Shown here: positions 1,581 to 27,100 of the stretch, one piece after another
How positions within the stretch are numbered: position 1 is the first letter of the stretch
Layout of the letters: each line of letters opens with the position of its first letter
NCBI GenBank assembly: GCA_017534425.1
Contig: JAFXWB010000023.1
Coordinates: forward strand, 1-36,097
DNA length: 36,097 nt
From: Bacilli bacterium
GTDB taxonomy: Bacteria; Bacillota_I; Bacilli_A; RFN20; CAG-826
Direction of reading: 5' to 3'
Program-made: the position numbers and the translations under genes
The notes under the pieces: generated by a model
Told to the model about the DNA's origin: nothing
What the model saw: the letters and a program-made list of their open reading frames with translations, nothing else
Database searches by the model: none

Positions 1581-3920
1581 TTAGAAATATGTGATGTAAT
1601 CAAGTACAAGTGGTTGAGCACCTGGATTGGTGAATACACCAATAGCAATATTCTTGTTCTTTTCTTTTGGAACACCACAGTTAACATAATGCCATCCTGG
1701 TTCAACGCCAGTGCCATCATCCTTGTATACAACAGATGTTAATTGTTGGTAATTACCAGATGTTGGAGTGTAATTATCATATGAGAATAATGAAACAGTG
1801 TAATTATATCCAGCTGGAATATAGAACCAGAATGCAACTGATTCAACTGCTAAGCTTTGAGCTTGTGCAACGGCAGGATTAATAATTGCTCTTGTTCTTG
1901 TTGTTCCGTTTACGCCCATCTTAATAGCGCTATTACCTTCAATATAGTAATCAGTAATTTGTGTCATTCTATCATTTGCGGTGTATGCATCCCAGGAACT
2001 ACTTCCTGATTGATTTGAGAACATACCTTGAAGAGTTGCAGTATCTTGTGTACCGTTTGCAAGAACATTATCTTCAACTAATGTAAATGAAGAATCATTA
2101 ATAATACTTGCAATCGAACCAGTAATATCACTCTTATTTATTGTGACAGAAGTCTTATCTGCATTAAATGTGCCAGTCCAATTTCCGAAATCATAAGAAT
2201 CTTCATCAAAATATGTTTTGTATTCATCTGGAACATCAAATGAGCCGTTTGTCTCAATTAACAATTGATCACCATTAATGGTGTGATTTGTTGGTTGCAT
2301 GTTTGCGCCAGCGTAAGCATAAGTATACCCATTAGCACCTAAACCAACTTTGACTGTGTATGCCAGGGCAGGAACATTATTTGGTTTAATATGAACTGTA
2401 CCATGATATGTCTTGGTAATATGTGTAGCAGACTCGTTATATTGTTTTGTTGGAACGAAAACTGGTTCTGTATAAACTGTGATATCATCAATTGGCATAA
2501 ATACAAAGTCGGTCGATATGCCTGAGTTATTAATCATGATGTTAATAGCATAAACTTGTTTATCAGGATTAATATTAATTGTGCATTTTGTCCAATCGGC
2601 ACCAGAACTAATGGTAAAGTCTTTTGTTCCTGTACCATAGGTTGAAGAGTTTCTATTACTGTCTGTCAAAACAAAGTTTTGATAATAAACTTGTGCTCTA
2701 ATTATAACATTACTTGCATTAACTCCTGTTCCATCAGGATTATTACGTCCGCTATGAACCCAGAATGATAATCTATTACCTCTACCAAAATTATAATGTT
2801 GATTTTGATCCCAAACTTCTCTACTCCAAGCTCTAACCCAACCAGCTTTTTGGCCTTGTAAAAGCATAGCTTTATTTCCACTATGTACTGGACCTGTGCC
2901 ATTAGTACTTAAATTAAGATAATTTGATGTACTTGGAATTTTGAAACTTGAGCCAGAAACCCATGTTGCACCGCTACCAGAGCCTGCGTCAACATAATAT
3001 GCAGCTCTTAAATTACTTGCTGTAAAAATTGAGGTTTGATCACCTGAATAACCTGTTCCTCTGTCTGGATAACTTTCAAAGTCGTCCAAAACATAAACAC
3101 GATTCATTTCACCAATTGTTGGAGCAAGAGCCGCACCTGCACCACTCTTTTCAGAGAAGTTTAATGTTCTATAGTCACTTGAAACTGAACCTGTATAAAC
3201 AATGTTTCCGCTAGCTAATGTCATTGTGAAATTACCTAAATTATCAAGTGCGATTGTACCTGTTTGACCAGCGACAGAAACGTTCGAACCTTCTCTAGTA
3301 AGCTCATAGGTGTTTCCGTCTTGTGCTTTACCATTATAGGTTACACCTAATCTTTCAACATCCCAACCAGCTTCAACACATGAATATTCTACTGTTAATG
3401 CTGTAATGGTTGTTTCTGCAGATGCATTTGTAATCATCACATAGTTAGGACTTGAAATTAATTCTTTTTCTGTCCCAGAAACCAAAGCACTCTTAGGACC
3501 ATAATTTTCATAACTTCCGGCTAAGCCTTCTTGGATGAATAAAGAACCACCACTATACTGGACTGTAACAGATTTAATGTTTGTAATCTTTCCATTAAAT
3601 TCGGCAGTTTTGTGATAATTGAATACTCTTCCAGATGGAGCAAGAACTAAGTTGTTGTTTGCGTCCTTCTTTGCTAATGAGTAGTTCATTACCAGTGGTA
3701 AGCTTTCACCAAAACTTTGTTGGACATTTTGCTGATATGTAGTTGTTAAACTAGACATTGCAAAAACATCACTATTCAAAGTTCTCGTATAAGTTGGTTC
3801 ATTTGCATTTGTTCTCGACGTTGATCTTTTTGACTTTACACCAGCAATGACAGCACAAACTGTCAAAACTGAAACAGTCGTCAAAGAAAGAAACATCGTC
3901 AATAAAGTCTTTTTCTTCAT
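1581..3920 (-). CDS. Large secreted beta-sandwich protein with DDFESY-type module
   Basis: A 779-residue exported protein of unknown function. The chosen start (MKKKTLLTMFLSL) follows AAAGGAGGC. An upstream in-frame ATG at 3959 overlaps the -10 box and cannot be the start. The N-terminus is a Sec-type signal or membrane anchor. LTVC is a poor lipobox, so lipidation is doubtful. The rest is Ser/Thr/Asn-rich and beta-predicted. About residues 245-440 form a module beginning LDDFESY and ending PIDDITVY that resembles carbohydrate-binding jelly rolls. A similar module, also preceded by a small beta domain ending in LAP-x-I, occurs in the 963-residue lipoprotein at 19167-22058. The C-terminal roughly 170 residues form another sandwich ending in LDYITYF. 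No catalytic motif was recognised. It lies downstream of the sugar-uptake operon but has its own promoter. A glycan-binding surface protein is the best guess. Confidence 0.85.
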   Translation of the reverse strand: MKKKTLLTMFLSLTTVSVLTVCAVIAGVKSKRSTSRTNANEPTYTRTLNSDVFAMSSLTTTYQQNVQQSFGESLPLVMNYSLAKKDANNNLVLAPSGRVFNYHKTAEFNGKITNIKSVTVQYSGGSLFIQEGLAGSYENYGPKSALVSGTEKELISSPNYVMITNASAETTITALTVEYSCVEAGWDVERLGVTYNGKAQDGNTYELTREGSNVSVAGQTGTIALDNLGNFTMTLASGNIVYTGSVSSDYRTLNFSEKSGAGAALAPTIGEMNRVYVLDDFESYPDRGTGYSGDQTSIFTASNLRAAYYVDAGSGSGATWVSGSSFKIPSTSNYLNLSTNGTGPVHSGNKAMLLQGQKAGWVRAWSREVWDQNQHYNFGRGNRLSFWVHSGRNNPDGTGVNASNVIIRAQVYYQNFVLTDSNRNSSTYGTGTKDFTISSGADWTKCTININPDKQVYAINIMINNSGISTDFVFMPIDDITVYTEPVFVPTKQYNESATHITKTYHGTVHIKPNNVPALAYTVKVGLGANGYTYAYAGANMQPTNHTINGDQLLIETNGSFDVPDEYKTYFDEDSYDFGNWTGTFNADKTSVTINKSDITGSIASIINDSSFTLVEDNVLANGTQDTATLQGMFSNQSGSSSWDAYTANDRMTQITDYYIEGNSAIKMGVNGTTRTRAIINPAVAQAQSLAVESVAFWFYIPAGYNYTVSLFSYDNYTPTSGNYQQLTSVVYKDDGTGVEPGWHYVNCGVPKEKNKNIAIGVFTNPGAQPLVLDYITYF

Positions 3921-3957
3921 TATAAAGCCTCCTTTATACAATAAACAACTTACTAAC

Positions 3958-3986
3958 ATTATATGTTAATTATGAAGTTTTTGAAA
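3958..3986 (-). promoter_or_regulatory. Promoter of the secreted-protein gene
   Basis: The minus strand shows TTTCAA (3986-3981), a 17-bp spacer and a perfect TATAAT (3963-3958). A leader of about 30 nt containing AAAGGAGG leads to the ATG at 3920. Together with the terminator at 4047-4074 this separates the gene from the ABC operon. Confidence 0.7.
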
Positions 3987-4046: not shown

Positions 4047-4074
4047 ACAAAAAAGCGTTATTTTAAAATAATGC
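4047..4074 (-). terminator. Terminator overlapping the ATPase stop codon
   Basis: On the minus strand GCATTATTTTAAAATAACGC is self-complementary (GC ends, one A-C mismatch, then TTA/TAA with a TTTTAAAA centre) and is followed by TTTTTT. The hairpin contains the last codons and the TAA of the ATPase gene. The stem is AT-rich, so efficiency is uncertain. Confidence 0.6.
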
Positions 4075-6154
4075 TATCTCCTGGAATATGGATTTTGAAC
4101 TTATCCATTGCATAGACTGAGAAATTATTCTCAACATGGAATGTAGCGTAATTCTCGATTCCTTTAACAACACCATAAATGAAGTTCTTATTTGAAGATT
4201 TATCTTCATCATATGCTGTAAATGTGATGAGGTTTTTCTTAAGTTCAGGTCTAGGAGTAAATAATTCCTCACGAAGATTAGCAAGATATTCTGTATTTTT
4301 ACTAATGCGTTCTTGCGCATCAGATAAATCATTTTGAGCTTCATTAAGTTTTTCTTGTAAAGCTTGTTTGTTTACATCATCAACTTTTTCTAAAGCTTTC
4401 TCAGTCTTTAAAATTATTCTATTAGCAAGTTTGGCATCTTTTCTTGCTTCTAGTAAAGCTGCATTAGCAGGATCTGAGGCAAGTTTCTCTTTAAGAAGTT
4501 TTTTGCTTAAGATAACAACTGCATTTTCTGGAGAAATCTCCACAGTGCATTCGCCTTCAATATGAGCAAATTCTGGTCTATCTTTAACTTCGAGAGTTGT
4601 TCCGCAAGCTTTAACGAACAAACGGCCGTCTTTTCGGAATGCATGCCCAGATGTTTCGTTTTTATAAACGATTTCGTGGGATTTGACTAAATCATGATTT
4701 TCATCATAAATCTTCATGTTCTTGACCGGCATATAGATATAGTCAACTTTAGCAGGTTGATCGAGTTTAAGTTTCATGACGAAATATTCGTCTAAACCAT
4801 TAACCTTGAAGAATGCTGCGACATAATCAGTCTTATCTTCGGTAAACTCAATCTTAATTGGTAGTTTAATGCTATTTGGAATTTCTTTAAGTGAAATTTC
4901 ATTAACATTTGCAACAAGTTGCAATTCTTTATTAAATGCAGTGCCTAAAAGTTTACTCTTTAAATCTGCTGGTAAATCAATAACGTTTTTACCAATAGTG
5001 ACTTCATTATCACTAAATGTAGCTTTAAAGCTATTGCAAGTACGAACACCTAAAATAGAATTTGTGGTTTCTTTATCGAATAGGTAAGCGGCATCCATAT
5101 CAAATGTGAGTTTAATCTTCTCTTTAGTTTTGACTCTACCTTTGAATGGGGCTTTAACGATAACGTTACCTTTAATTCCAGGAATTTGACAATAATAAAT
5201 TGTTTCATCACCAAGTTGTTCAACAACATCGATAATGCCTTCAATATTTCCGTTTTCATCAACTTTAATATTTTCTGGTCTAATACCAAATTTAACATCT
5301 TTTCCTATATAGGAACTATTGACGAGTTCTTTAGTTTTAAGATTAGAGAACTTGAGCAATGGTTTTGCCTCTGCATCAGTTAGTGTAGCTGTTAAAACTG
5401 CACCGTCTTTGCCAAGTCTAGCATTCAAAATGTTCATTTGTGGTGAACCTAAGAATGTTGCGACAAATAAGTTTGCTGGATCGTTATATAAGGCAACTGG
5501 AGAATCTACTTGTTGAATAAAACCATCTTTCATAACAACGATTCTTGTACCCATTGTCATAGCTTCAGTTTGGTCGTGAGTAACATAAATGAATGTTGTT
5601 TTTAGTTTCTCGTGAAGTTTTGTAATTTCACTTCTCATTTGAACTCTTAACTTAGCATCTAAGTTTGATAATGGCTCGTCAAGAAGGAAGACTTTTGGTT
5701 CACGAACGATAGCTCTACCTAAAGCAACACGTTGTCTTTGACCACCAGACAAAGCTTTAGGCTTTCTGGTTAATAATTCTGAAATTTCAAGGATTTCTGC
5801 TGCATTTTTAACACGTTTTTCAATTTCTTCTTTTGGAGTGTGTCTTAATTTAAGACCAAACGCCATATTTTGGAAAACTGTCATGTGTGGATAAAGAGCA
5901 TAATTTTGGAAAACCATGGCAATATCTCTATTTTTGCTCTCAACGTCATTAACAACTTCATCATCAATGTAAAGTTTGCCTTGAGTAATATCTTCAAGAC
6001 CCGCAATCATTCTTAAAGTTGTGGATTTTCCACACCCAGATGGACCAACGAAAACGACAAATTCTTTGTCAGGGATATCGAGGTTAAAATCATTAACAGC
6101 TCTAACACCGCCTTCGTATACTTTGTATACATTTTCTAGTTTTACTTTTGCCAT
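4058..6154 (-). CDS. MsmX/UgpC-like sugar ABC transporter ATPase with long C-terminal extension
   Basis: The cytoplasmic ATPase that energises CUT1-type sugar importers, presumably with the permeases at 16316-18165. Residues 1-240 are a complete nucleotide-binding domain: Walker A GPSGCGKST (37-45), Q-loop Q83, signature LSGGQ (135-139), Walker B VFLLDEP (155-161) and H-loop H193. Residues 240-367 are the MalK-type TOBE/OB region (FGIRPENIKV near 289; DAAYLFD near 354-360), where ordinary family members end at about 365-370 residues. Here about 330 residues follow: further beta-rich sequence (370-550, with a TOBE-like YIYMPVKNMKIYDENHD stretch), a charged probable coiled coil (555-632), and a last TOBE-like piece (640-698). 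It is the final gene of the operon, 2 nt after the preceding stop, with AAGGAG inside that gene's end. Extended UgpC-type ATPases are known in mycoplasmas (from memory); this one is longer than usual. The ATPase function is certain; the role of the extension is unknown. Confidence 0.95.
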   Translation of the reverse strand: MAKVKLENVYKVYEGGVRAVNDFNLDIPDKEFVVFVGPSGCGKSTTLRMIAGLEDITQGKLYIDDEVVNDVESKNRDIAMVFQNYALYPHMTVFQNMAFGLKLRHTPKEEIEKRVKNAAEILEISELLTRKPKALSGGQRQRVALGRAIVREPKVFLLDEPLSNLDAKLRVQMRSEITKLHEKLKTTFIYVTHDQTEAMTMGTRIVVMKDGFIQQVDSPVALYNDPANLFVATFLGSPQMNILNARLGKDGAVLTATLTDAEAKPLLKFSNLKTKELVNSSYIGKDVKFGIRPENIKVDENGNIEGIIDVVEQLGDETIYYCQIPGIKGNVIVKAPFKGRVKTKEKIKLTFDMDAAYLFDKETTNSILGVRTCNSFKATFSDNEVTIGKNVIDLPADLKSKLLGTAFNKELQLVANVNEISLKEIPNSIKLPIKIEFTEDKTDYVAAFFKVNGLDEYFVMKLKLDQPAKVDYIYMPVKNMKIYDENHDLVKSHEIVYKNETSGHAFRKDGRLFVKACGTTLEVKDRPEFAHIEGECTVEISPENAVVILSKKLLKEKLASDPANAALLEARKDAKLANRIILKTEKALEKVDDVNKQALQEKLNEAQNDLSDAQERISKNTEYLANLREELFTPRPELKKNLITFTAYDEDKSSNKNFIYGVVKGIENYATFHVENNFSVYAMDKFKIHIPGDSIILK

Positions 6155-6156
6155 GA

Positions 6157-7017
6157 TTAATTCTCCTTACTCTCCTCAGCTATATAGAGACCCTTTTTAT
6201 AGTAATCAGGGTAGTTTAGTCGATTAATGTATTTGTCAAAGGCCTCGTGGGATAGTAATGTCCACGCTATCATCATAAATGAAGATAGGAATGCAATTAC
6301 TATAATAATAACAATTTGGGCAATAAAATCAACAAACATTAATCCCACAACTAAACCTGTTGTTAACACAAAAAGTAATAAATTTTTGAAAAACTTTGCC
6401 ACGAAAAAGATGAAAGAATTTCTAAAAACTTGCCAACATGAATTCGTGTAATAGCAATCATATGTAAGTGTGTAGACACAAATTATAGATAATACAATGA
6501 ACTGAATAATGCATAAACCCATGCCAATACTTTGCACCCAAGGTTGTTCTGAACTTTGTTGAGTTCTTAACATAAAAAATGAGCCAACCACTAATAAAAA
6601 AAGTGAAACTCCCCACACAAAACCAAACACTAAAGCGTGCTTCCAGTTTTTCTTAATTCCGACAAAAAATTCTGGACCTGTCAACACTGCATTTTGCCAA
6701 GCAATTTGTTTACAAACTTGCGCTAGTCCAGCAAGGCCAATAAAGCCAATCATTGAACACGGAATTGCAATTATCATCATGTAAAAAATCATCGAAAAAA
6801 CTAGAGATGAATAGTTAGCTTCATCGGAAGGAATTCCAATAATAAACATATCAAAAATTAGAATATCTACTACCAAAGGTAGTAAAAACACAAATAATAA
6901 CATGGATAATGATACCATTTGTCTTTTTTGATTTTTCAAAAGATCAAGGAAAATTTGTCTCCTAGTATGAGGAAGCTCTTTAACACTAAAATCTGTTTTT
7001 CTTTCCTTGTTTTTCAT
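6157..7017 (-). CDS. Polytopic membrane protein, resembles YesL/DUF624
   Basis: A 286-residue integral membrane protein with about six hydrophobic segments. The ATG at 7017 is chosen because the frame upstream of it starts only at a TTG inside the preceding gene. The ATG lies one base after the preceding stop, which suggests translational coupling. A middle stretch (GLAGLAQVCKQIAW, then EFFVGIKKNWKHAL) resembles the YesL/DUF624 family, whose genes commonly sit beside LplABC-type sugar transporters. It is longer than a typical YesL (about 210 residues). Its place between the importer genes and their ATPase suggests an accessory role in transport or in assembly of the surface system. The function of the family is not established, so no symbol is given. 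Confidence 0.75.
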   Translation of the reverse strand: MKNKERKTDFSVKELPHTRRQIFLDLLKNQKRQMVSLSMLLFVFLLPLVVDILIFDMFIIGIPSDEANYSSLVFSMIFYMMIIAIPCSMIGFIGLAGLAQVCKQIAWQNAVLTGPEFFVGIKKNWKHALVFGFVWGVSLFLLVVGSFFMLRTQQSSEQPWVQSIGMGLCIIQFIVLSIICVYTLTYDCYYTNSCWQVFRNSFIFFVAKFFKNLLLFVLTTGLVVGLMFVDFIAQIVIIIVIAFLSSFMMIAWTLLSHEAFDKYINRLNYPDYYKKGLYIAEESKEN

Positions 7018-7018
7018 C

Positions 7019-7612
7019 TTATTTTCCCAATACATATTGCATAAATTTAAATGCATTTTCTGTGTGTTTTTTTGATTGAGAATATTCACCAATATTCCAA
7101 CTTTTTGCAGCTATAAAGGCATAGTAATTTATGTTTTCTTTCAAGTTTGCAATTTCATTTATTGGTGTTACTTTAGGCACTGCAACACCATAGCCAGATT
7201 CATCGATCGTTTCGTCTGTAATTTTGCATAATTCTTTAACTTCACTAGTAAGTTCAAGAACAGCTGTTTCAATTCCGATGCTTTGTAATTTTTCTTCTGG
7301 AAGAATGATTAAATCACATCTATTGTAAGCAACAACTGAAATCTTTTTTGCAAATGTAACTTCATCTTCTAAATAATCGGCTTCAATAACTTCTGTTTTC
7401 CTAATTCCTAAATCTTTCAAATCAGTGAATAATTTATCTTCAGCGTTCTCTTTAGCATAGCAAGGAACAAAAATTGACAATGTTTCATTCTGTTTTGCCC
7501 GATGCATAAAAGAATAAGAAAGTGGGAATAAAACAACAGGAACCACTATTGCAAGCAAATACAAATACCAGGTGTAAGAAAATGACTTTTTAAATTGAGT
7601 AGAAAATTTCAT
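7019..7612 (-). CDS. Single-pass membrane-anchored protein, possibly binding-protein-like
   Basis: 197 residues of unknown function. An N-terminal positively charged segment leads into one hydrophobic helix (about residues 16-36, YLYLLAIVVPVVLFPLSY), so the remaining 160 residues are probably outside the cell. The outer part alternates strands and helices (LSIFVPCYAKENAEDKLF, CDLIILPEEKL) and ends in ENAFKFMQYVLG. The last is reminiscent of the C-terminal helix of family 1 solute-binding proteins. I therefore suspect a tethered, shortened binding-protein-like fold, but this is an impression only. The start codon overlaps the previous gene's stop as ATGA. Confidence 0.75.
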   Translation of the reverse strand: MKFSTQFKKSFSYTWYLYLLAIVVPVVLFPLSYSFMHRAKQNETLSIFVPCYAKENAEDKLFTDLKDLGIRKTEVIEADYLEDEVTFAKKISVVAYNRCDLIILPEEKLQSIGIETAVLELTSEVKELCKITDETIDESGYGVAVPKVTPINEIANLKENINYYAFIAAKSWNIGEYSQSKKHTENAFKFMQYVLGK

Positions 7613-8094
7613 TTTCTTAACTCCACATTAATAACTATAGAACCATAAACCTGAATTCTGGCCTTTTGGTTCTTCTTAAATGAAAATTTACTTGGAAGAT
7701 AGAAGAATTTATCTTCTTCCTTTAAATTTTCATCAACTTTTGCCTCTAAAACATAGTATTCACGCCCATTATATTCTTTAATATTTTCAGAAATACTTTG
7801 TATTTCAACATCATACTCGCTTAGTTCGACTTTAGAAGCTCCTTCAAAAAAACGAACGTCAGCTTTTAAAACTCGACGAATAACCGTGAAGTAGAAGACA
7901 GCATAAATTAAGTAAAAAACGCTGATTAATATAGTAAAAATTAACTCTAAGATGTACTTTTGTTTTGATGTTAACATCAAAAGTATAATTAAAGCGAATG
8001 TAAGAATAGTAGATAAAATAAAAAGTATAAAATGGCGTCGTTTTTTATATTCGGCGCCATATAAACCTTTTTCAATATCAACTAAATTAAGCAT
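7609..8094 (-). CDS. Small membrane protein with two transmembrane helices
   Basis: 161 residues, not recognised. The ATG at 8094 overlaps the end of the SGNH lipoprotein gene by 8 nt. The only alternative further upstream is a TTG at 8115. A basic stretch (EYKKRRH) precedes two long hydrophobic helices (about residues 20-43 and 47-70). The C-terminal roughly 90 residues are hydrophilic and beta-rich (YYVLEAKVDENLKEED, then a short barrel-like end VYGSIVINVELRK). If the positive-inside rule holds, both ends are cytoplasmic. It is co-transcribed and start/stop-coupled with the tethered protein downstream, and these two plus the YesL-like gene look like one functional sub-cassette. Confidence 0.7.
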   Translation of the reverse strand: MLNLVDIEKGLYGAEYKKRRHFILFILSTILTFALIILLMLTSKQKYILELIFTILISVFYLIYAVFYFTVIRRVLKADVRFFEGASKVELSEYDVEIQSISENIKEYNGREYYVLEAKVDENLKEEDKFFYLPSKFSFKKNQKARIQVYGSIVINVELRK

Positions 8095-9409
8095 TTTGTT
8101 TTCTAAAATCTGCAATTAATTTATCTTTGATAAACTTACCCCAAATTGCATAACCAGCAAGTGACATATGTAAACCATCAAGTAAGAAATATGCTTGATT
8201 TGGTTCTCCGTTTGCTTTTAATAAACCTTCTCCCGCATTTAAAATGGTTACATAGTCATGAGTTTTTTCGTAATTTTTTGCAGCATTATTAACTACATCA
8301 AATTCTGCTTGCCTATTTCTGTAATTTGGAAGTTCATTAATTAAAACATAATAAATATGAGTATTTGGAAGATGAGAATGAACATCATCAAACATTTCCC
8401 TTAGCCATGTGCTTGTTTGTGAAGCACTTGTGCCTGTGTTAATAATATTATTAACACCAACATAATAAATCACGATTTTTGGAGAATATGGATAAACAAG
8501 TCTTTGGTTAAGCTTATCTTTCCATTGTTCAACTGTTGTTCCACCAATACCATGGTTAAATGTTATCATTGGATCTAAATCATCTTTCGAATTGACCCAG
8601 TTCTCCATTGATGATGAACCGGCCAACATGATATGGTGATCTTCAATCTCAACATCTCTAGTTTCATAATTAGCCGCTTTTGTCTCATAATTTGTATCTT
8701 CAAGCTTTAAGTTATTTGAATAATTTTGAACGGTGATAGATCCTTCAACATTACTTTCTCCTTCTTTTGAGGCAGAATAGCTAATCTTTTTTGCTGAATC
8801 ACTATATGAGGCAGTAAGAGTTACTCCAGTTTTAATCTTGAAATTTAAAACATCAACCACGTTACTTGGAGTCCTTTTTAATCTAGAAATTGCCGAATTA
8901 GAAAGTTTAACTTTTCCATCATTTACTGGAATATTTACTACACCGGAAATTGATACTAATGTATCAATTGAATCATCAATATGAGATGGTTCGACATATT
9001 CAGGTTCCACAAAGTCTTCGTCCGGATTTTGTTGAGACCAATGCGCATACAAAATTAAATTTGCGGTTATAGAAGTATTAAAATCAAAAGGAGAATTAAC
9101 AATTGGATCAAGATGCCAACCATCAAATTCATAATTGACTCTCATTGGATCTCTTTCTGGTCTAGAAACTTTATTGTTTTTATCAATTACATCAACTTTT
9201 AATGCGGTCGAACTTGTTGAAGCATACATACCACTATTAAGATCAAGTTCTTCTTTCCCGATATTTTTATAGAAAGAAACCGTGACTTTTTCAGCATCAA
9301 GTTGTTTCATTGAATAACCTTCATCTTTGTAATCAATGATTTTTGTTTTACTTCCACAACCTGTTAAAACGAATCCTGAAACAAGGAGTAATATTAAATT
9401 TTTTCTCAT
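8087..9409 (-). CDS. Lipoprotein with InlB-type repeat and C-terminal SGNH/GDSL hydrolase domain
   Basis: A 440-residue surface lipoprotein. The lipobox LTGC has its cysteine at residue 18. Residues about 41-125 match a Listeria-Bacteroides (InlB B / Flg_new) repeat, with the hallmark YEFDGWHLDP...LYAHW. After a linker rich in Glu/Pro and a beta domain (150-235) comes an SGNH hydrolase domain (about 255-440): block I AGSSSMENW with probable nucleophile Ser266, block II NHGIGGTTVEQW, block III VGVNN with Asn320, and block V DGLHMS with Asp411/His414. All four SGNH elements are visible. The family cleaves O-acyl groups, and here deacetylation of a polysaccharide outside the cell is the natural inference. 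The ATG directly abuts the stop codon of the GH130 gene before it. Confidence 0.9.
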   Translation of the reverse strand: MRKNLILLLVSGFVLTGCGSKTKIIDYKDEGYSMKQLDAEKVTVSFYKNIGKEELDLNSGMYASTSSTALKVDVIDKNNKVSRPERDPMRVNYEFDGWHLDPIVNSPFDFNTSITANLILYAHWSQQNPDEDFVEPEYVEPSHIDDSIDTLVSISGVVNIPVNDGKVKLSNSAISRLKRTPSNVVDVLNFKIKTGVTLTASYSDSAKKISYSASKEGESNVEGSITVQNYSNNLKLEDTNYETKAANYETRDVEIEDHHIMLAGSSSMENWVNSKDDLDPMITFNHGIGGTTVEQWKDKLNQRLVYPYSPKIVIYYVGVNNIINTGTSASQTSTWLREMFDDVHSHLPNTHIYYVLINELPNYRNRQAEFDVVNNAAKNYEKTHDYVTILNAGEGLLKANGEPNQAYFLLDGLHMSLAGYAIWGKFIKDKLIADFRKQNA

Positions 9410-14725: not shown

Positions 14726-16303
14726 TTATTTTCCTATTGCTCTATTAACTTCAGCGATTGTGTTATTCCATTTTGCAGTATCAAATTTAGCAACATATTC
14801 GGAAATATCTGGATAATTTTTATCAAAGGCAAACTTAAGTGCATAGTCATTACCATCGCCAATCATAGAAGATGTATTTTGATCTTTAAGATTTGTTGAT
14901 AACCATTTAACGTGTGGAGGTTCACCAAAGGTGACTAATTGATTTGCAGCTTTTGCAGCTTTCATATCATTAGTCCACTTTGTGATAATTTCATAACTTT
15001 TTTGTTCAGTATATGGATCATAAGAAGATGTATCGTTACCTAAAGTAATCATCTTTCTTAAATACTTAGCACCATTATTTTTTTCAACATATTCGCCATC
15101 AGTCATGGTCCAACTATCTGAAATGAGTTCAATATCTCCATTTTCATCAACAAAGTAGTCGACATCTTTTTTGCCATAAATGGCAAGATTTGTGCCCTCT
15201 TCACCTAAAAGGAATTCTAAAATATCAAGAATCTTTTCTTGTTTTGAATCAGAAATATCGGCATTAAAGAATGTCATTGAGAACCAGTTTTCACTTCCTT
15301 CAAGATGGAATTTTCCATCTGGTCCTTTAACTTTCATAATTGCAGTGTAGTCATCTAAATCTTCTTCAGAAATACCAGTTTTAATCCCTTTTACATCCTT
15401 TCTTAAGGTTGCATAATTAGAAAGAGATAAGTTTTCATAATAAATACCCATATGGCCACCCTTATATTCATCATAAGCCTTAGTATTTTTAGTATTAGAA
15501 ACTTGGTCAAAATATTTAGTTGGATTTGCCATTGCATAGCTTCTTGTTAATTCTAGACCCTCTTTATAACCTGCAGTTGTGAAAGCATTCACGACAGTTC
15601 CATCAGGTTGGACTGAATAACAGTGAGGTGAGTCCTTATAGAAATTAGTTAATGATGGGAAGCCCCAAGCAACATCACCAATTGCACATGAATTTCCTTC
15701 TTTAACATCATCTCTATTTGCAAATAATTCAATAATATTTTTGAATTCTTCCCAAGTATAAACATCATCATCGTGAACTAATGTTGGATCAATTGCTCTT
15801 AACCAGTCACGTCTATAGACGTAAGTAAATGAAGAGAAGTCTTTTGTTGGGTCATCTTGATTATATGCAAGAGGAATTCCATATAAATCTCCATCAATTT
15901 TTAAGTATTCAATATTTGAGGTTTGTTCAATTAGTTTTTTAATTTTTGGCCACTTAGATAAATCTCTTGGTAAAGCTTTAACAACTCCACCTTCTGCCCA
16001 GTTTTTATATGTATTTCCAAAGTTAAATGATTCAAGGTCAAAATGGAAAACATCGCCGATGTTATCACCATTAACTTCGCCCATGACTTGTTCGCCCCAA
16101 GAGTTGTAATCATATGAAGATGGTTCGATTGTAACACCAAACTTTTCTTCAATTACATCTGTATAAGGATCTGAACCATCCCAAGATGAGAAATATAAAT
16201 TTCTAAGTTTTAAAACGTGTTCTTGATTTTTCTTTTTACAGCCTGTTAGGCCAACAATTGAACAACATAGAAGTGCTGAAACAGTTAATAGTTTTTGATT
16301 CAT
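14726..16303 (-). CDS. Extracellular sugar-binding lipoprotein of a CUT1 (LplA-type) ABC importer
   Basis: 525 residues with lipobox GLTGC (Cys22). The mature part is a family 1-type solute-binding protein: VIEEKFGVTIEPSSYDYNSW, DVFHFDLESF, IDGDLYGIPLAY, TYVYRRDWLRAID, YTWEEFKNIIELF and ENWFSMTF are typical of the long LplA/YtcQ-like oligosaccharide-binding proteins that pair with LplB/LplC-type permeases. The two permeases are encoded immediately upstream in transcription, with a strong AGGAGG in the 12-nt gap. The ligand is probably an oligosaccharide released by the GH-A enzyme encoded next. Aromatic residues are abundant in the predicted cleft regions, but the ligand cannot be named from sequence. 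Confidence 0.93.
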   Translation of the reverse strand: MNQKLLTVSALLCCSIVGLTGCKKKNQEHVLKLRNLYFSSWDGSDPYTDVIEEKFGVTIEPSSYDYNSWGEQVMGEVNGDNIGDVFHFDLESFNFGNTYKNWAEGGVVKALPRDLSKWPKIKKLIEQTSNIEYLKIDGDLYGIPLAYNQDDPTKDFSSFTYVYRRDWLRAIDPTLVHDDDVYTWEEFKNIIELFANRDDVKEGNSCAIGDVAWGFPSLTNFYKDSPHCYSVQPDGTVVNAFTTAGYKEGLELTRSYAMANPTKYFDQVSNTKNTKAYDEYKGGHMGIYYENLSLSNYATLRKDVKGIKTGISEEDLDDYTAIMKVKGPDGKFHLEGSENWFSMTFFNADISDSKQEKILDILEFLLGEEGTNLAIYGKKDVDYFVDENGDIELISDSWTMTDGEYVEKNNGAKYLRKMITLGNDTSSYDPYTEQKSYEIITKWTNDMKAAKAANQLVTFGEPPHVKWLSTNLKDQNTSSMIGDGNDYALKFAFDKNYPDISEYVAKFDTAKWNNTIAEVNRAIGK

Positions 16304-16315
16304 ATTTTTTTCCTC

Positions 16316-17224
16316 CTAACCTTTAATAGCACCAACAACGATTCCTTTTACAAAGAATCTTTGTAAGAAAGGATAAAATGACATCATCGGAACAATTGTG
16401 AAGAATACCGCAGCCATTTGTAATCCTTGAGAATAAATTTTCTTATTATCTCCACCATCAATCTTTGTAGATGATGTGACAATCATTTCACGAAGTACTT
16501 GTTGAAGCGGTTTATACTTGGCAGTTTTGATAAATAGCATACCGTTATACCAGGAGTTCCAGTTACCAACTGCAAAGAATAAACCGATTGTCGCAAGCAT
16601 CGGAAGTGATAAAGGTAAATAAATCTTCGCGAAAACAGTGATATCATTAGCGCCATCCATCTTCGCTGATTCTTCCATTTCTTTTGGCAAGGATGCAAAG
16701 TAGTTCCTCATCAAAAGCATGTTAAACGTATCAATAGCACCAGGAATAATCATGACTAAAATCGAGTCATAAAGTCCCAAAGATACTATTAAATAATAGT
16801 ATGGAACAAGGCCACCACCAAAAAACATCGTGACCAAGATCATATTCATAACAAAGTTTTTACCAAACCAATTACTTCTACTTAAGGCATAACCTGTAAT
16901 AACAGTGAAGAATAATTGGTAGGCTGTGCCTACTATAAGAAGTATCATTGTGACTGAAAAACCAGACCACAATAACTTATTATTGAAAACTTCTCTATAC
17001 GCATCAAAAGTAATTTCTTTTGGATAAATTAAGAAAGGAGTCTCAAGTACAACACGCTCAGGTGATAAAGAAATAAGGAACGCGTTATAGAACGGATAAA
17101 TAATCATTAAGGTAAATAGGCCTAAAATAACGAAGATAACCCAGTCTAAAGGACCGAGCCTATTATTTGCGTTGCTCGTTATTTTTCTAAGCGGTAATCG
17201 TTCTATTCCAACATCTTTTCTCAT
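16316..17224 (-). CDS. LplC/YtcP-type sugar ABC permease
   Basis: 302 residues, six transmembrane segments, MalG/LplC-type inner-membrane component of a CUT1 importer. It begins with a hydrophilic cytoplasmic tail, then DWVIFVILGLFTLMIIYPFYN. The EAA-loop that docks the ATPase reads EMEESAKMDGANDITVFAKIYLPL, with the conserved Gly. The C-terminus (YPFLQRFFVKGIVVGAIKG) is almost a family consensus. Its ATG overlaps the preceding permease's stop (TAATG), so the two should be made in equal amounts. Confidence 0.95.
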   Translation of the reverse strand: MRKDVGIERLPLRKITSNANNRLGPLDWVIFVILGLFTLMIIYPFYNAFLISLSPERVVLETPFLIYPKEITFDAYREVFNNKLLWSGFSVTMILLIVGTAYQLFFTVITGYALSRSNWFGKNFVMNMILVTMFFGGGLVPYYYLIVSLGLYDSILVMIIPGAIDTFNMLLMRNYFASLPKEMEESAKMDGANDITVFAKIYLPLSLPMLATIGLFFAVGNWNSWYNGMLFIKTAKYKPLQQVLREMIVTSSTKIDGGDNKKIYSQGLQMAAVFFTIVPMMSFYPFLQRFFVKGIVVGAIKG

Positions 17225-18165
17225 TAGATGATTCCTCTTTCACCGCATGCCTTAGCGATTCTATCTGTTGCAATAACTAAAATAAACGAGACAACAGACT
17301 TAAATAAACCAACTGCAGTACCGATTCCAGGATTTCGATATGACTGGAATGTTTCACGGTAGATATATGTATCTAAAATATCAGCTTTTTCATAAACAAG
17401 TGGATTATATAAATTGAAAATCTGGTCAAATCCAGCAGATAAAACACCACCAACAGACATAATTAAGAGTAATATCGCTACTGACTTAATACCTGGCAAT
17501 GTAACATGCCAAATCTTTTGTAGACGTGTAGCACCATCAATGTCTGCAGCTTCATATTGATCCTGTGGAATTCCAGCCATAGTCGCGAGGTAAACAATTG
17601 AACCCCAGCCGGCTTCTTTCCAAATATCAGCACCAAAAATTAAGCCTAGGAAGAAATTGCCGTTTGCCATAAACATGACACGTTCTCCACCTAAAACATA
17701 TATGAGGTCATTTATCGACCCGCTTGTTGTAAACAAGGACGAAACAAAGCCAGCAATAATAACCCAGCTTAAGAAGTGTGGGAATGTAACAATAATTTGA
17801 ATAACTTTTTTAACTCTTCTCATTCTAAGCTCGTTCAAAAGAAGAGCGGTTGTAACTGCGCCAACAAAGGCTAGAACAATCTTAATTGTTCCAATCTTTA
17901 TTGTATTTAATAAAACAGTCCAGAAATATGGGTCTTCAAATATAACTTTAAAGTTATCAAATCCAATCCATTTAGAACCAAAAATACCAAGTTTTGGATA
18001 ATATTTTTGGAACGCCATCAAAACGCCATACATTGGTACGTAGCAGAAAATAGCATAAAATGCTATCGCTGGAATAATCATTGCGATTAAGAACCCAGAC
18101 TTTTTGAGTCTAAGCTTTGCTAGGTGACCAAATGATCTTTTGTGGCGAATCGTTACAAGTTCCAT
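17224..18165 (-). CDS. LplB/YteP-type sugar ABC permease
   Basis: 313 residues, six transmembrane segments, the MalF/LplB-type partner. Family landmarks are the long first helix followed by YVPMYGVLMAFQKYYPKLGI, SKWIGFDNFKVIFEDPYFW, LLLNELRMRRVKKVIQ, TFPHFLSWVIIAGF, and the EAA-loop QYEAADIDGATRLQKIWHVTLP that contacts the ATPase. The end (YRNPGIGTAVGLFKSVVSFILV) is also typical. It starts 3 nt after the GH130 gene. Relatives import pectin, xylan, mannan or host-glycan fragments, so the family alone does not define the substrate. Confidence 0.95.
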   Translation of the reverse strand: MELVTIRHKRSFGHLAKLRLKKSGFLIAMIIPAIAFYAIFCYVPMYGVLMAFQKYYPKLGIFGSKWIGFDNFKVIFEDPYFWTVLLNTIKIGTIKIVLAFVGAVTTALLLNELRMRRVKKVIQIIVTFPHFLSWVIIAGFVSSLFTTSGSINDLIYVLGGERVMFMANGNFFLGLIFGADIWKEAGWGSIVYLATMAGIPQDQYEAADIDGATRLQKIWHVTLPGIKSVAILLLIMSVGGVLSAGFDQIFNLYNPLVYEKADILDTYIYRETFQSYRNPGIGTAVGLFKSVVSFILVIATDRIAKACGERGII

Positions 18166-19166: not shown

Positions 19167-22058
19167 TTATAGATAACTTAAAGCAAGATTATCGAAATAA
19201 AGAATTGCAAAACCATTATCACATTTTGCAGTAATTTCGAGTTTATAGCCTGCAGATAATGTGAAATCAAAACCAACATGTGCTAAAGCACTACCTGAAT
19301 TTATTTCAACATAACCTGAATTGCCTTCAGTCCCAGCAATATATGAAACGACATTATCACTTGCATCAAGAATTGCGATTTTATACTGAATAGCTCCTGA
19401 AGCGAAGAAATAATCATTGCCTAAATCAATATCAAAATGATTAACAGGACCAAATGGTAATTCTGGTGTGTAAATAAGTTTCCTTAATTCTTGGTCACAG
19501 TTAAAGCTAATAGCTTTGCTACCACCTTTTTCTTCACTATTCATTTCAACTGGATTTACATTATTCCAACTTGAAGTGTACTTTTTCTCACTCCAATGTT
19601 CATTAGTATAAGTTCCACTTCCAGAGCCGTCTTCAAAATTAACGGCCAAATCTACATATTGAGAGAATGAATTTCCTACAAATGAATAGTTAGAAGCGTT
19701 TGTTCCAGTAACACTTGTGACTGAAATATTGCTGTCATTATCAAGAGTTCCGCTAATTGTTAAGTTTGCACCTGATGTCGCACTATCTTTCAATGTGACA
19801 GTAGTTTCGTTAAGTTCAAAGTCAAGTGAAACCGAAGTACCATCTGCGCAATTAAGAAGACTTGCACTCGCAAATGAATCATCAATATTTAATTTATATG
19901 CATCAGTAGAATTATTATAAATATAATAATCTTTAGGAATTCCTGCAAATTCTACTAATGGATCACCTTCGCCATGAAGAATCATATCATCAACATAAAA
20001 ATATTCATTTGACTTGGTTGGAGTAATCATGATTCCAAATACTTCACGATTCGGGTCAAGAGGAATACTGATTCTTGTCCATTCTGTAGAAATTGGAATG
20101 TCTTTAATAAACTTGCAATCGCCACCTTCATAACCTTGATTTAATGCAGTAACACCTTTAACATACCAAACTCTAAGAGCTAATTTTTGATTGTTTGCAG
20201 TAGATTTCATGAAACATGAAAAATTAGAGCCTCTTCCAATAGCCAAAGCGTTTCCGAAAGCAAGTCCCATTGTCATATAACGAACTTGATTCGAAGAGTG
20301 GTTTCTAAATTTTAAGCATTTTCCGTTATGGCCTGCATTCGCAAGTTCAATATAATCTGGCCAACCAGATGCATTTAACAAGTTCCAGTTTGTATCGATT
20401 TTCCCAGGTATTCCGGAACTTCCAGAATACATATCACCATAATATTGGCCTCTAAGACCAGAAGTTGAGCTACGAACAGTATTTCCACTATCAAAACCTT
20501 GGCCACTATTTTGGTATGATTCAAAGTCATCAACCCTTAACAATTCTTCAAAATGTTTATCTTCAAAATCAATATGACTAGCGATTGGAGCTAAATATTC
20601 TATATCGCCTGTTGGGTCATCAGAAAATGTTAAAACATTGCCATTAAAGGCAATATCCATCTTAAAAACAATTGATTTATTGTTTGCAGGGACAGCAGTT
20701 AACGTTAATTCATCACCCTCAACACTAGTACTGCAAGGGAACGAAATGTTGTTCATTAAGTTAAGTGATTCAATTCGCGAATTTTCACCATTTAAAGTTA
20801 ACTTAAATACTGTTCCATCAGCGGAAGCAATTGTATAAACTCTTCCATCTAATTTAACAAAGCGTTGTTCTTTTCTTGTTTCACTTGTACGAATTAATTT
20901 AATATTATCAACATATGTTTTAATATTGCCGTTGGCAATATAATTAGGTGTCATAATAACAGCAACTTTATCAATATAAACAGACAATTCTTCAGCGCTT
21001 AATCCGAGAGTTTTAAAAGCTGCAGTTATAGTTGTGCTACTAGCTATTGATAATGTCTCATCATCAAGAGGAATTTCCCAATGAGTCCAATTTGTAGACG
21101 CGTTTTTGCTTAATGTATAAGTAGCATAAGTATTTTTATAACCGCTGTACCTTTCAGGGAGCGGTAAGTCTTTAAACCAAAATTGCACTTTTACGTCGGT
21201 GCTTGCACCGTCAGCACGGCCATCTATAAAAGTATCAATGGCAAAGCCATTATATTTTTTTGTAAGTGGTTCAATATCAATTGTTGCTTTAAAAGCTCTG
21301 CCTTGGTGAGTCAAATTCATTCTCATGGTATTTGTGCCATCACCAATTACTTGATTTTTATACACTTCTAAAGAAGCAGTGTTCGGAATTGTCCAACCAC
21401 TATCGCCATAATATTCAAGAACAAATTGATCATATAAATCGTTATTTGTAAAACCTTCAAAATCAGCCACCATAAATGATTCAGTTGCGTTTTCTGTAAC
21501 AATTGTTAAAGTGGCCGTTCCAGTCCAAGATGTATAACCTTCCATTGTAACGGTTGCAGTAATAACATGGCTTCCAGGTAATGTAAAAGTATTACCTTCT
21601 GTACCATAGCTAATTACTGCTCCTTCAGGAATATCGCCTGTGACAGAAATGGAGTGTGGCTGAGCATCATATGTAACTGTTGCGCCAACAAATGTATAAG
21701 AACCTGGTAGTTCAGCAGGATTTATCGTAAGTGTGGCAGTTAAAGTTAAAGTCGTATAACCATTACAAGTAATGGTCGCAGTTATAACATGATCGCCAAC
21801 CGAACTAAATGAGTTCCCTGATTCTCCATAACTAACAGTAGCGCCCTCAGGAAGTTCACCTGAAACAGAGATTGAATGTTCTTGTCCGTCATATGTATAT
21901 GTAGAATTATTGAAAGATAAACCGGTAAAAGTTTTGTCCGTTTGTTGTTGCTGTTGTTCTTCATTATTATTGTTATTTGAATTATCTTTTCCCTTACAAC
22001 CAGAAAAAAGCATTGCAACTATTGGAAGCAAGAATATTAATTTACCTTTTTTCATCAT
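19167..22058 (-). CDS. Giant surface lipoprotein with tandem MBG-type repeats and carbohydrate-binding-like modules
   Basis: 963 residues from the ATG at 22058, chosen because AAAGGA precedes it; the frame further upstream starts only with TTG and lacks a signal. Lipobox LFSGC (Cys21) is followed by a low-complexity Asn/Glu/Gln tract. Next come two tandem MBG-type Ig-like repeats of about 75 residues (YTYDGQEHSISVSGELPEGA and VTYDAQPHSISVTGDIPEGA). The rest is beta-sandwich: a module starting VADFEGF, a small beta domain, the DDFESY module (partner in the protein at 1581-3920), another beta domain, and a C-terminal sandwich ending ILYFDNLALSYL. No catalytic site was seen. As first gene of the operon it is probably the main glycan-capture protein, with the MBG repeats acting as a stalk. 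The role is inferred. Confidence 0.88.
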   Translation of the reverse strand: MMKKGKLIFLLPIVAMLFSGCKGKDNSNNNNNEEQQQQQTDKTFTGLSFNNSTYTYDGQEHSISVSGELPEGATVSYGESGNSFSSVGDHVITATITCNGYTTLTLTATLTINPAELPGSYTFVGATVTYDAQPHSISVTGDIPEGAVISYGTEGNTFTLPGSHVITATVTMEGYTSWTGTATLTIVTENATESFMVADFEGFTNNDLYDQFVLEYYGDSGWTIPNTASLEVYKNQVIGDGTNTMRMNLTHQGRAFKATIDIEPLTKKYNGFAIDTFIDGRADGASTDVKVQFWFKDLPLPERYSGYKNTYATYTLSKNASTNWTHWEIPLDDETLSIASSTTITAAFKTLGLSAEELSVYIDKVAVIMTPNYIANGNIKTYVDNIKLIRTSETRKEQRFVKLDGRVYTIASADGTVFKLTLNGENSRIESLNLMNNISFPCSTSVEGDELTLTAVPANNKSIVFKMDIAFNGNVLTFSDDPTGDIEYLAPIASHIDFEDKHFEELLRVDDFESYQNSGQGFDSGNTVRSSTSGLRGQYYGDMYSGSSGIPGKIDTNWNLLNASGWPDYIELANAGHNGKCLKFRNHSSNQVRYMTMGLAFGNALAIGRGSNFSCFMKSTANNQKLALRVWYVKGVTALNQGYEGGDCKFIKDIPISTEWTRISIPLDPNREVFGIMITPTKSNEYFYVDDMILHGEGDPLVEFAGIPKDYYIYNNSTDAYKLNIDDSFASASLLNCADGTSVSLDFELNETTVTLKDSATSGANLTISGTLDNDSNISVTSVTGTNASNYSFVGNSFSQYVDLAVNFEDGSGSGTYTNEHWSEKKYTSSWNNVNPVEMNSEEKGGSKAISFNCDQELRKLIYTPELPFGPVNHFDIDLGNDYFFASGAIQYKIAILDASDNVVSYIAGTEGNSGYVEINSGSALAHVGFDFTLSAGYKLEITAKCDNGFAILYFDNLALSYL

Positions 22059-22230
22059 TTTTCCTTTAATCGCTAGACAAAAAATAAAGCGTTCACTCAA
22101 ATTAATGCATAGACCGCATTGACAAAAGAGCAAACGCAACTTTTTGTTTCATAAAGATATTGATATTTTAATACGTACGCGTTCATTTGTATAGCAAATG
22201 CGTGCATAAATATAGCAATAAAAGATAAAA
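22059..22230 (-). promoter_or_regulatory. Intergenic control region of the sugar-uptake operon
   Basis: The only sizeable gap (172 nt) between the two sugar units. It holds no credible gene or clear terminator. Its most striking element is CATTTG-TATAG-CAAATG (22184-22200), a 6-bp inverted repeat with a 5-bp centre. On the minus strand TTGCTA and TATTAA are spaced 18 bp apart and overlap the repeat. Further down there is TTGTCA with only poor -10 candidates. The promoter is therefore likely but not pinned down. The inverted repeat is a candidate operator for a regulator encoded elsewhere. Confidence 0.45.
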
Positions 22231-26609: not shown

Positions 26610-26867
26610 TCATTCGTAATGTGACCACATCCTAAGAATAACAATTAAGTTTTCCTTTTCACGTACTTCATAAACGAGTCTGTGCTGAATGTTAATTCTT
26701 CTAGAATAAACATTTTCAAAACCCAAAAGTTTCTTATATGCAGGCGGACTCACGAATGGATTTTCGCTGATCAAATTTATTAAAGCTTTAACAGTTTTTG
26801 TAAGTGCAGGAAATTGTTTAATCTTTTCTGAATCTTTAATGGCTTGTTTTGAGTATTTTATTACCAT
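26610..26867 (-). CDS. yoeB: Type II toxin, YoeB/Txe-family ribosome-dependent mRNA interferase
   Basis: 85 residues, normal for the RelE-superfamily YoeB/Txe group. The C-terminal half carries the family pattern YSRRINIQHRLVYEV, followed by a strand and the terminal SHYE, which ends in the His-Tyr of the active-site tail. YoeB cleaves mRNA in the ribosomal A site. The start overlaps the antitoxin stop by 7 nt, the usual coupled arrangement. It is intact and presumably functional. Confidence 0.92.
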   Translation of the reverse strand: MVIKYSKQAIKDSEKIKQFPALTKTVKALINLISENPFVSPPAYKKLLGFENVYSRRINIQHRLVYEVREKENLIVILRMWSHYE

Positions 26868-27100
26868 TCAATATCCAAAAGTTCAGAAGATGGAGTCTCA
26901 ACACCTTCTTTAATACTTTCATACATGCCTGGAATTGAAGACAAATATAAAGATTCAAGAAGATTGTTGTAATCCTGTTCACTAAGCATGATAAAATTAC
27001 CATCTTTCGTAGAAACGGTGATTCTATCATTAAATTTGATACAAGCGTTTGCTAGTTTAAATAACTCTTGTCTAGCATTGGTAATGTTAACAGTTGTCAT
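26861..27100 (-). CDS. yefM: Antitoxin, YefM/Phd family
   Basis: 79 residues. The N-terminal DNA-binding part (MTTVNITNARQELFKLANAC...ITVSTKDGNFIMLSEQDYNNLLESLYL) matches the YefM/Phd fold. The C-terminal acidic tail would wrap the toxin. It is first in the pair, with a good AGGAGG site 8 nt upstream. It is expected to repress its own promoter together with YoeB; TGTAC-containing repeats over the -10 box support this. Confidence 0.92.
   Translation of the reverse strand: MTTVNITNARQELFKLANACIKFNDRITVSTKDGNFIMLSEQDYNNLLESLYLSSIPGMYESIKEGVETPSSELLDIEW

Follow-up and report, generated by a model that had tools for sequence, protein, structure and literature searches.

The window (the whole stretch of DNA that was analysed, 36,097 nucleotides) lies on contig C48 of the source genome (G000), which comprises 1.34 Mb in 72 contigs. 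The relatives of this genome in the public collection are uncultured rumen or gut Bacilli (named there as 'uncultured Bacillales', 'Erysipelotrichaceae', or 'Bacilli bacterium'). Between about 26.5 kb and 4.06 kb, the window is taken up by a single-strand operon on the minus strand. It encodes a ROK kinase, a phosphomannose isomerase, esterases, two mannoside-type GH130 phosphorylases, two CUT1-type permeases, large lipoproteins (one of which matches solute-binding proteins, or SBPs), an SGNH lipoprotein, three membrane proteins that we will term A, B, and C, and a long MalK-type ATPase (Table 1). Because the operon encodes GH130 and phosphomannose isomerase, the substrate of the importer is probably a beta-mannoside.

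Table 1. Features of the window that are discussed in the text, in order of position.
Feature	Position	Strand	Details
Large protein	1581-3959	(-)	792 aa; no Pfam match; in or adjoining the operon
MalK/UgpC-type importer ATPase, long	4058-6154	(-)	698 aa; C-terminal extension of ~330 aa
C	6157-7017	(-)	Six helices; ATG at 7017, stop TAA at 6159-6157
B	7019-7612	(-)	197 aa, one helix; ATG at 7612-7610, stop TAA at 7021-7019
A	7609-8094	(-)	161 aa, two helices; ATG at 8094, stop TGA at 7611-7609
SGNH lipoprotein	8087-9409		Directly upstream of A
Solute-binding lipoprotein of the operon	14726-16303	(-)	PF13416 (SBP_bac_8), E = 5e-8
CUT1-type permease, MalG/LplC side	16316-17224	(-)
CUT1-type permease, MalF/LplB side	17224-18165	(-)
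Large protein	19167-22139	(-)	990 aa; no Pfam match; in or adjoining the operon
Toxin/antitoxin-like pair	26610-26867 and 26861-27100	(-)	ParE/YoeB-type toxin gene directly after an overlapping antitoxin-like ORF of 79 aa

The three genes of the trio are tightly packed. The start of A overlaps the 3' end of the SGNH lipoprotein gene, the start of B overlaps the stop of A by 4 nt (ATGA), the ATG of C lies 1 nt past the stop of B, and the ATPase gene begins 2 nt past C. (Mechanically, the open reading frame of C opens upstream, at a TTG at 7092; the conserved N-terminus agrees with the ATG that we list.) The original prediction, which was that these three genes are start/stop-coupled and sit just before an importer ATPase, was correct in both respects. 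It also placed them between the sugar enzymes and that ATPase. This needs two corrections: besides GH130 there is the SGNH lipoprotein gene, which is the one directly upstream of A, and the ATPase, although of the MalK type, is unusually long. Pfam and NCBIfam gave no match above cut-off for A, B, or C of the window.

The extension of the ATPase, which lies past the TOBE region, matches no family and no solved structure. The versions of this ATPase in relatives are mostly 626-657 aa. The extension may be a regulatory domain. Outside the sugar operon, the toxin/antitoxin-like pair sits between the operon and a gene for a ribosome-binding-type GTPase.

Conservation and gene neighbours of the trio

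We ran three profile searches, for A, B, and C, over one set of 146 genomes from the source's family. There were 42 copies of B; A was adjacent to 41 of these, and 39 had C. The order was A-B-C in 37 of the 38 complete sets, with gaps of a few bases. (The exceptions to the standard trio include a truncated copy in G164 and a rearranged one in G259, where the order is C, ATPase, A, B.) The trio is a real, repeatedly inherited unit that is conserved far beyond chance. The pairwise distances of A, B, and C are also correlated (rho of 0.35 to 0.44; in the full set, this was higher than in every permutation), but this is only supportive, as the kinship of the genomes was not corrected for.

The trio is unevenly distributed. 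It is carried by about a quarter of the family's genomes, and many importers within one genome do without it. When the phylum was sampled more widely, clear matches were confined to a handful of families, all in the source's class. Trios were found in many genomes among the relatives and in the class, and a search of the public collection with a profile from a sub-alignment of C found more. Genomes of Clostridia encode proteins that resemble C, but these lie in another kind of cluster and have no A or B with them. The source genome has two complete trios, whose surrounding genes differ, as well as a third A where a contig ends. (This is an A-like start, G000:C29:24097-24300 or L246, that follows a 488 aa ATPase; it is probably the genome's third trio.) Other genomes also have two or three trios, so the trio looks system-specific and not housekeeping.

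An operon that is this long and all on one strand could carry along unrelated membrane genes, and the trio might be no more than that. We find this hardly credible because the same trio, in the same order, is found at paralogous and distant loci alongside different enzymes, and because the synteny counts contradict it.

Instead, the trio travels with sugar importers. Among 43 distinct trio loci, 36 have an ABC ATPase no more than four genes away, and at least 25 have importer permeases in the DNA analysed around the trio. As a rough estimate, the 1.34 Mb genome contains about 12 permease clusters, which means that one would fall within a random stretch of 18 kb in about a sixth of cases; about 7 loci with permeases would then be expected. 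No ATPase lies within four genes at 7 of the 43 loci, and no permease was seen in the analysed DNA at 18, several of which are on short contigs. The original prediction had called for this search of gene neighbourhoods and had named a trio found mostly without sugar transporters as the result that would count against it; in these 43 loci, the reverse was found.

There are three arrangements of ATPases around the trio. In the first, which is that of the window, the order is SGNH lipoprotein, A, B, C, and the long MalK; an ATPase of the short type was not seen. In the second, a short ATPase of 240-255 aa precedes A-B-C, which is sometimes followed by a second ATPase of the MalK type. In the third, a MalK of 467-483 aa precedes A-B-C and a GH30 enzyme follows. 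The short ATPases retain Walker A, and nearly all of them retain Walker B. Four of the operons (L024, L028, L069, and L071) have two ABC ATPases, the short one before A and the MalK-type one after C.

The family's 146 genomes also contain 23 further copies of C without A or B. In a sample of 14 of these C-only loci, an ATPase directly adjoins C in 13, and at many C-only loci it is the short ATPase that is retained beside C. Since the ATPase adjoins C even where A and B are missing, the ATPase and C look like the core of the system, with A-B as an optional pair. At four C-only loci (L112, L150, L245, and L248), a small Ig-like (BIG2-type) lipoprotein is encoded ahead of the short ATPase and C, seemingly in place of the A-B pair.

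The short ATPase raises the question of whether A-B-C and an ATPase of their own make up a separate ABC machine, either a second motor or another transporter, that sits beside the sugar importer. At many loci a dedicated and mostly motif-intact ATPase lies directly before A, in some cases (the four operons above) together with a MalK-type ATPase, and at C-only loci it often stays next to C. In contrast, loci of the window's type show only the long MalK, after the trio. The fold of C, which we discuss below, is the other evidence that bears on this reading.

Predicted features of A, B, and C

Comparing the profiles of A, B, and C to solved structures by sequence gave nothing usable. We describe A by its composition and B and C by their AlphaFold models. 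A has two helices and, at its C-terminus, a beta-rich domain of about 85 aa. On average, there are 4.7 lysines and arginines before helix 1 and 3.7 after helix 2, as compared to 1.5 in the intervening loop. As positive charges flank the helix pair, the positive-inside rule implies that the C-terminal beta-like domain is probably cytoplasmic.

B is modelled (pLDDT 82) as a helix (residues 2-37) and an outer domain (residues 42-197). When the outer domain was compared to known structures with VIA-align, the top rows were NgtS, a beta-1,2-glucooligosaccharide SBP, YesO, and MalE, with Z of 10 to 10.5 over 127-131 residues at about 3 Å. (The best Z of 10.5 was reached by NgtS, with 127 residues at 3.1 Å, and by the beta-1,2-glucooligosaccharide SBP.) Of 1000 compared chains, 880 had Z ≥ 5, and the rows were all solute-binding proteins. 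Foldseek alone gave weak hits (best E of 3.1e-3), in part to MBP fusion tags, which are themselves SBPs. The model spans residues 40-345 of NgtS, yet only 127 residues are aligned, which indicates that it corresponds to the first and last parts of one lobe and that the other lobe is skipped. Similarly, the 155-residue outer domain aligns to 120-138 residues of SBP chains that have 300-450 residues, and it does not form a two-lobed cleft. Thus, the outer domain of B models as one lobe of a sugar SBP that is anchored by a helix and that is missing lobe 2. The original prediction had noticed a faint resemblance of B to a truncated SBP, and had proposed a structure prediction for B that might have turned out unlike any binding protein; as far as the fold goes, the resemblance was right.

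The sequence of B gives fewer clues. No member of a 27-member alignment has a Pfam SBP match, and the profile of B reaches real SBPs only at E of about 1e-5, beside a chance match of equal size. Among the weak matches beyond the family (L154-L158), L155, L157, and L158 are genuine SBPs, but L156 is an undecaprenyl diphosphate synthase, and we dropped this group as proof of kinship. Profile-profile comparison of B with two of the operon's lipoproteins (515 and 525 aa) gave no significant match, so the link of B to SBPs rests on its fold. Across the 27 members, only Asp100 and Ser171, both of which are at strand ends, are nearly invariant, followed by Glu43, Phe48, Gly142, and Tyr164. This conservation pattern looks structural: the alignment has no conserved sugar site and no conserved aromatic or acidic cluster. 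As the alignment has no conserved lipobox either, the helix is the anchor. At its inner end, the helix often carries Trp15 and Tyr18, which fits its packing against a partner.

These features bear on the specific role that was originally predicted for the trio, which was a capture relay: B would take sugar from the lipoprotein SBPs and pass it to the permeases. B does appear to have an SBP-type lobe on the outer face, and the operon does encode lipoproteins that include a solute-binding protein. But a single lobe provides no cleft between two lobes, and the two nearly invariant residues are probably structural, so that no sugar site is visible in the 27 members. The relay is possible, but we consider it unlikely, and we favor it less than the docking or coupling role that we describe below.

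The model of C (pLDDT 88.9) has six helices. VIA-align matched it to PNS1 (Z 15.1), CTL1 (Z 14.2), and CysZ (Z 13.1); this group ranged from 10.7 to 15.1, and after a clear gap came rhodopsins and others at Z of 6.5 and below. Hence C models with a CysZ/CTL-like fold. We also considered an ABC permease fold for C and found no support for it: C has no match to BPD_transp_1 or anything else in Pfam, and no ABC importer permease is among the structural matches in a listing of limited length. This also argues against the separate ABC machine, which we judge to be improbable. A role other than transport has been argued for the CTL family (PMC13160678), so a fold of this kind does not imply that C is a channel.

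The original prediction described C as YesL-like, and profile matches point the same way. The MusI_fam profile (NF052431) matches 12 of 26 members of C, with a best E of 5.5e-9, although all of these are far below the curated cut-off of 160 bits; C of the window scores 18.5 bits, and no match in 41 genomes exceeds the cut-off. DUF624 (PF04854) matches 2 of the 26 members at E ≤ 0.1 (best, 7e-4). C of the window has no match to this family, whose Pfam cut-off is 24.2 bits, but a C-like protein of a related genome (L145) passes at 30.6 bits. So, C is a distant relative of MusI and DUF624 (the YesL type).

The invariant parts of C are Leu-Pro-x-x-Arg near the N-terminus, E..DF..GIK.N after helix 2, and FD..IN....KGL at the C-terminus. 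Most of its invariant residues fall into these three clusters, in segments that are predicted to be cytoplasmic. If so, the partner of C is probably cytoplasmic as well, and the ATPase is the obvious candidate.

Another potential role is assembly or quality control, in which the trio would be a chaperone-like membrane complex that inserts or stabilises the permeases. The genes are coupled, no catalytic domain was recognised in them, and C is related to a family (DUF624/MusI) of unknown biochemical role, all of which would fit such a factor. This seems quite unlikely to us because it leaves both the SBP lobe on the outer face and the conserved cytoplasmic face of C, beside ATPases, unexplained.

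Possible role and relation to known importers

With slightly better than even confidence, we propose that A, B, and C together form an accessory subcomplex in the membrane that serves CUT1-type sugar ABC importers of uncultured gut Bacilli, and that it couples docking to the ATPase. C would be the hub, with its invariant cytoplasmic face docked on the importer's ATPase or on the ATPase and a permease together. The small beta domain of A would lie on the cytoplasmic side, beside the ATPase. The helix of B would hold a single SBP lobe at the outer face, beside C or the permeases, in a position to mimic one lobe of an SBP that docks there or to accept such a lobe. In this way, the complex would link the state of docking outside to the activity of the ATPase inside (through gating, stabilising, or coupling), without being the channel through which the sugar passes. 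The part of the original prediction that this preserves is a complex that assists the importer, which agrees with the conservation of the unit and its association with importers and ATPases; the capture relay is the part that we do not favor.

We favor the accessory role because of the conservation of the trio as a unit, its link to importers, the paralogous trios within single genomes, the position of C beside ATPases, the predicted cytoplasmic placement of its invariant residues, the MusI_fam matches and the membership of MusI in a maltose importer, and the SBP lobe of B. Several observations count against it. The loci that lack a nearby ATPase or permease are one; the low MusI_fam score of C is another. 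Also, the second, short ATPase before A in some operons might point to a separate machine, and the trio is not only patchy across the family but also missing from many of the importers that a genome encodes. More tentatively, the trio could be a docking sensor that is built from half of an SBP, in which the tethered lobe (B), the MusI-related hub with a CysZ fold (C), and the cytoplasmic beta domain (A) report or drive the docking of the SBP to the ATPase. That would be a class of accessory complex that is so far undescribed.

What MusI/DUF624-type proteins do in sugar importers is poorly understood. The cassette ties a protein of this type to ATPases, to a membrane-fixed half of an SBP, and to a conserved cytoplasmic face, and so leads to a testable model of docking and coupling. 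If the model is true, then the CUT1 importers with which gut and rumen Bacilli take up complex glycans have new subunits. In the libraries that we searched, which cover few subscription papers, we came across no account of a single SBP lobe tethered to the membrane, nor of an A-B-C trio.

Each protein with a recognizable fold can be compared to known systems. The predicted fold of C is like that of the CysZ sulfate permease and CTL1/PNS1, but C has no sequence match to them. The outer domain of B superposes on one lobe of sugar SBPs such as NgtS, YesO, and MalE; unlike them, it has no second lobe and no Pfam SBP match, and it has a membrane helix instead of a lipoprotein anchor or secretion. 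Like YesL/DUF624, C is a helical membrane protein of a carbohydrate locus, although C of the window itself does not match PF04854.

MusI is reportedly needed for uptake by the maltose importer. By the published name of the complex, MusEFGK2I, it is a component of the maltose ABC importer of Corynebacterium glutamicum (PMC10101108). C resembles MusI in being a polytopic membrane protein that is encoded with a CUT1 importer; the permeases (16316-18165) and the ATPase (4058-6154) are in the same strand run as C, as would be expected for the MusI family. Unlike the MusI_fam profile, which has 194 positions, C has about 286-300 aa, and its matches are far below the 160-bit cut-off. Also, the description of MusEFGK2I in PMC10101108 names no counterpart of A or B. 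Overall, C is close to a known kind of protein, the MusI/DUF624 accessory of CUT1 importers, though it is below the cut-offs of both families, and the trio points to an additional, so far undescribed accessory module that would assist the uptake of sugars.
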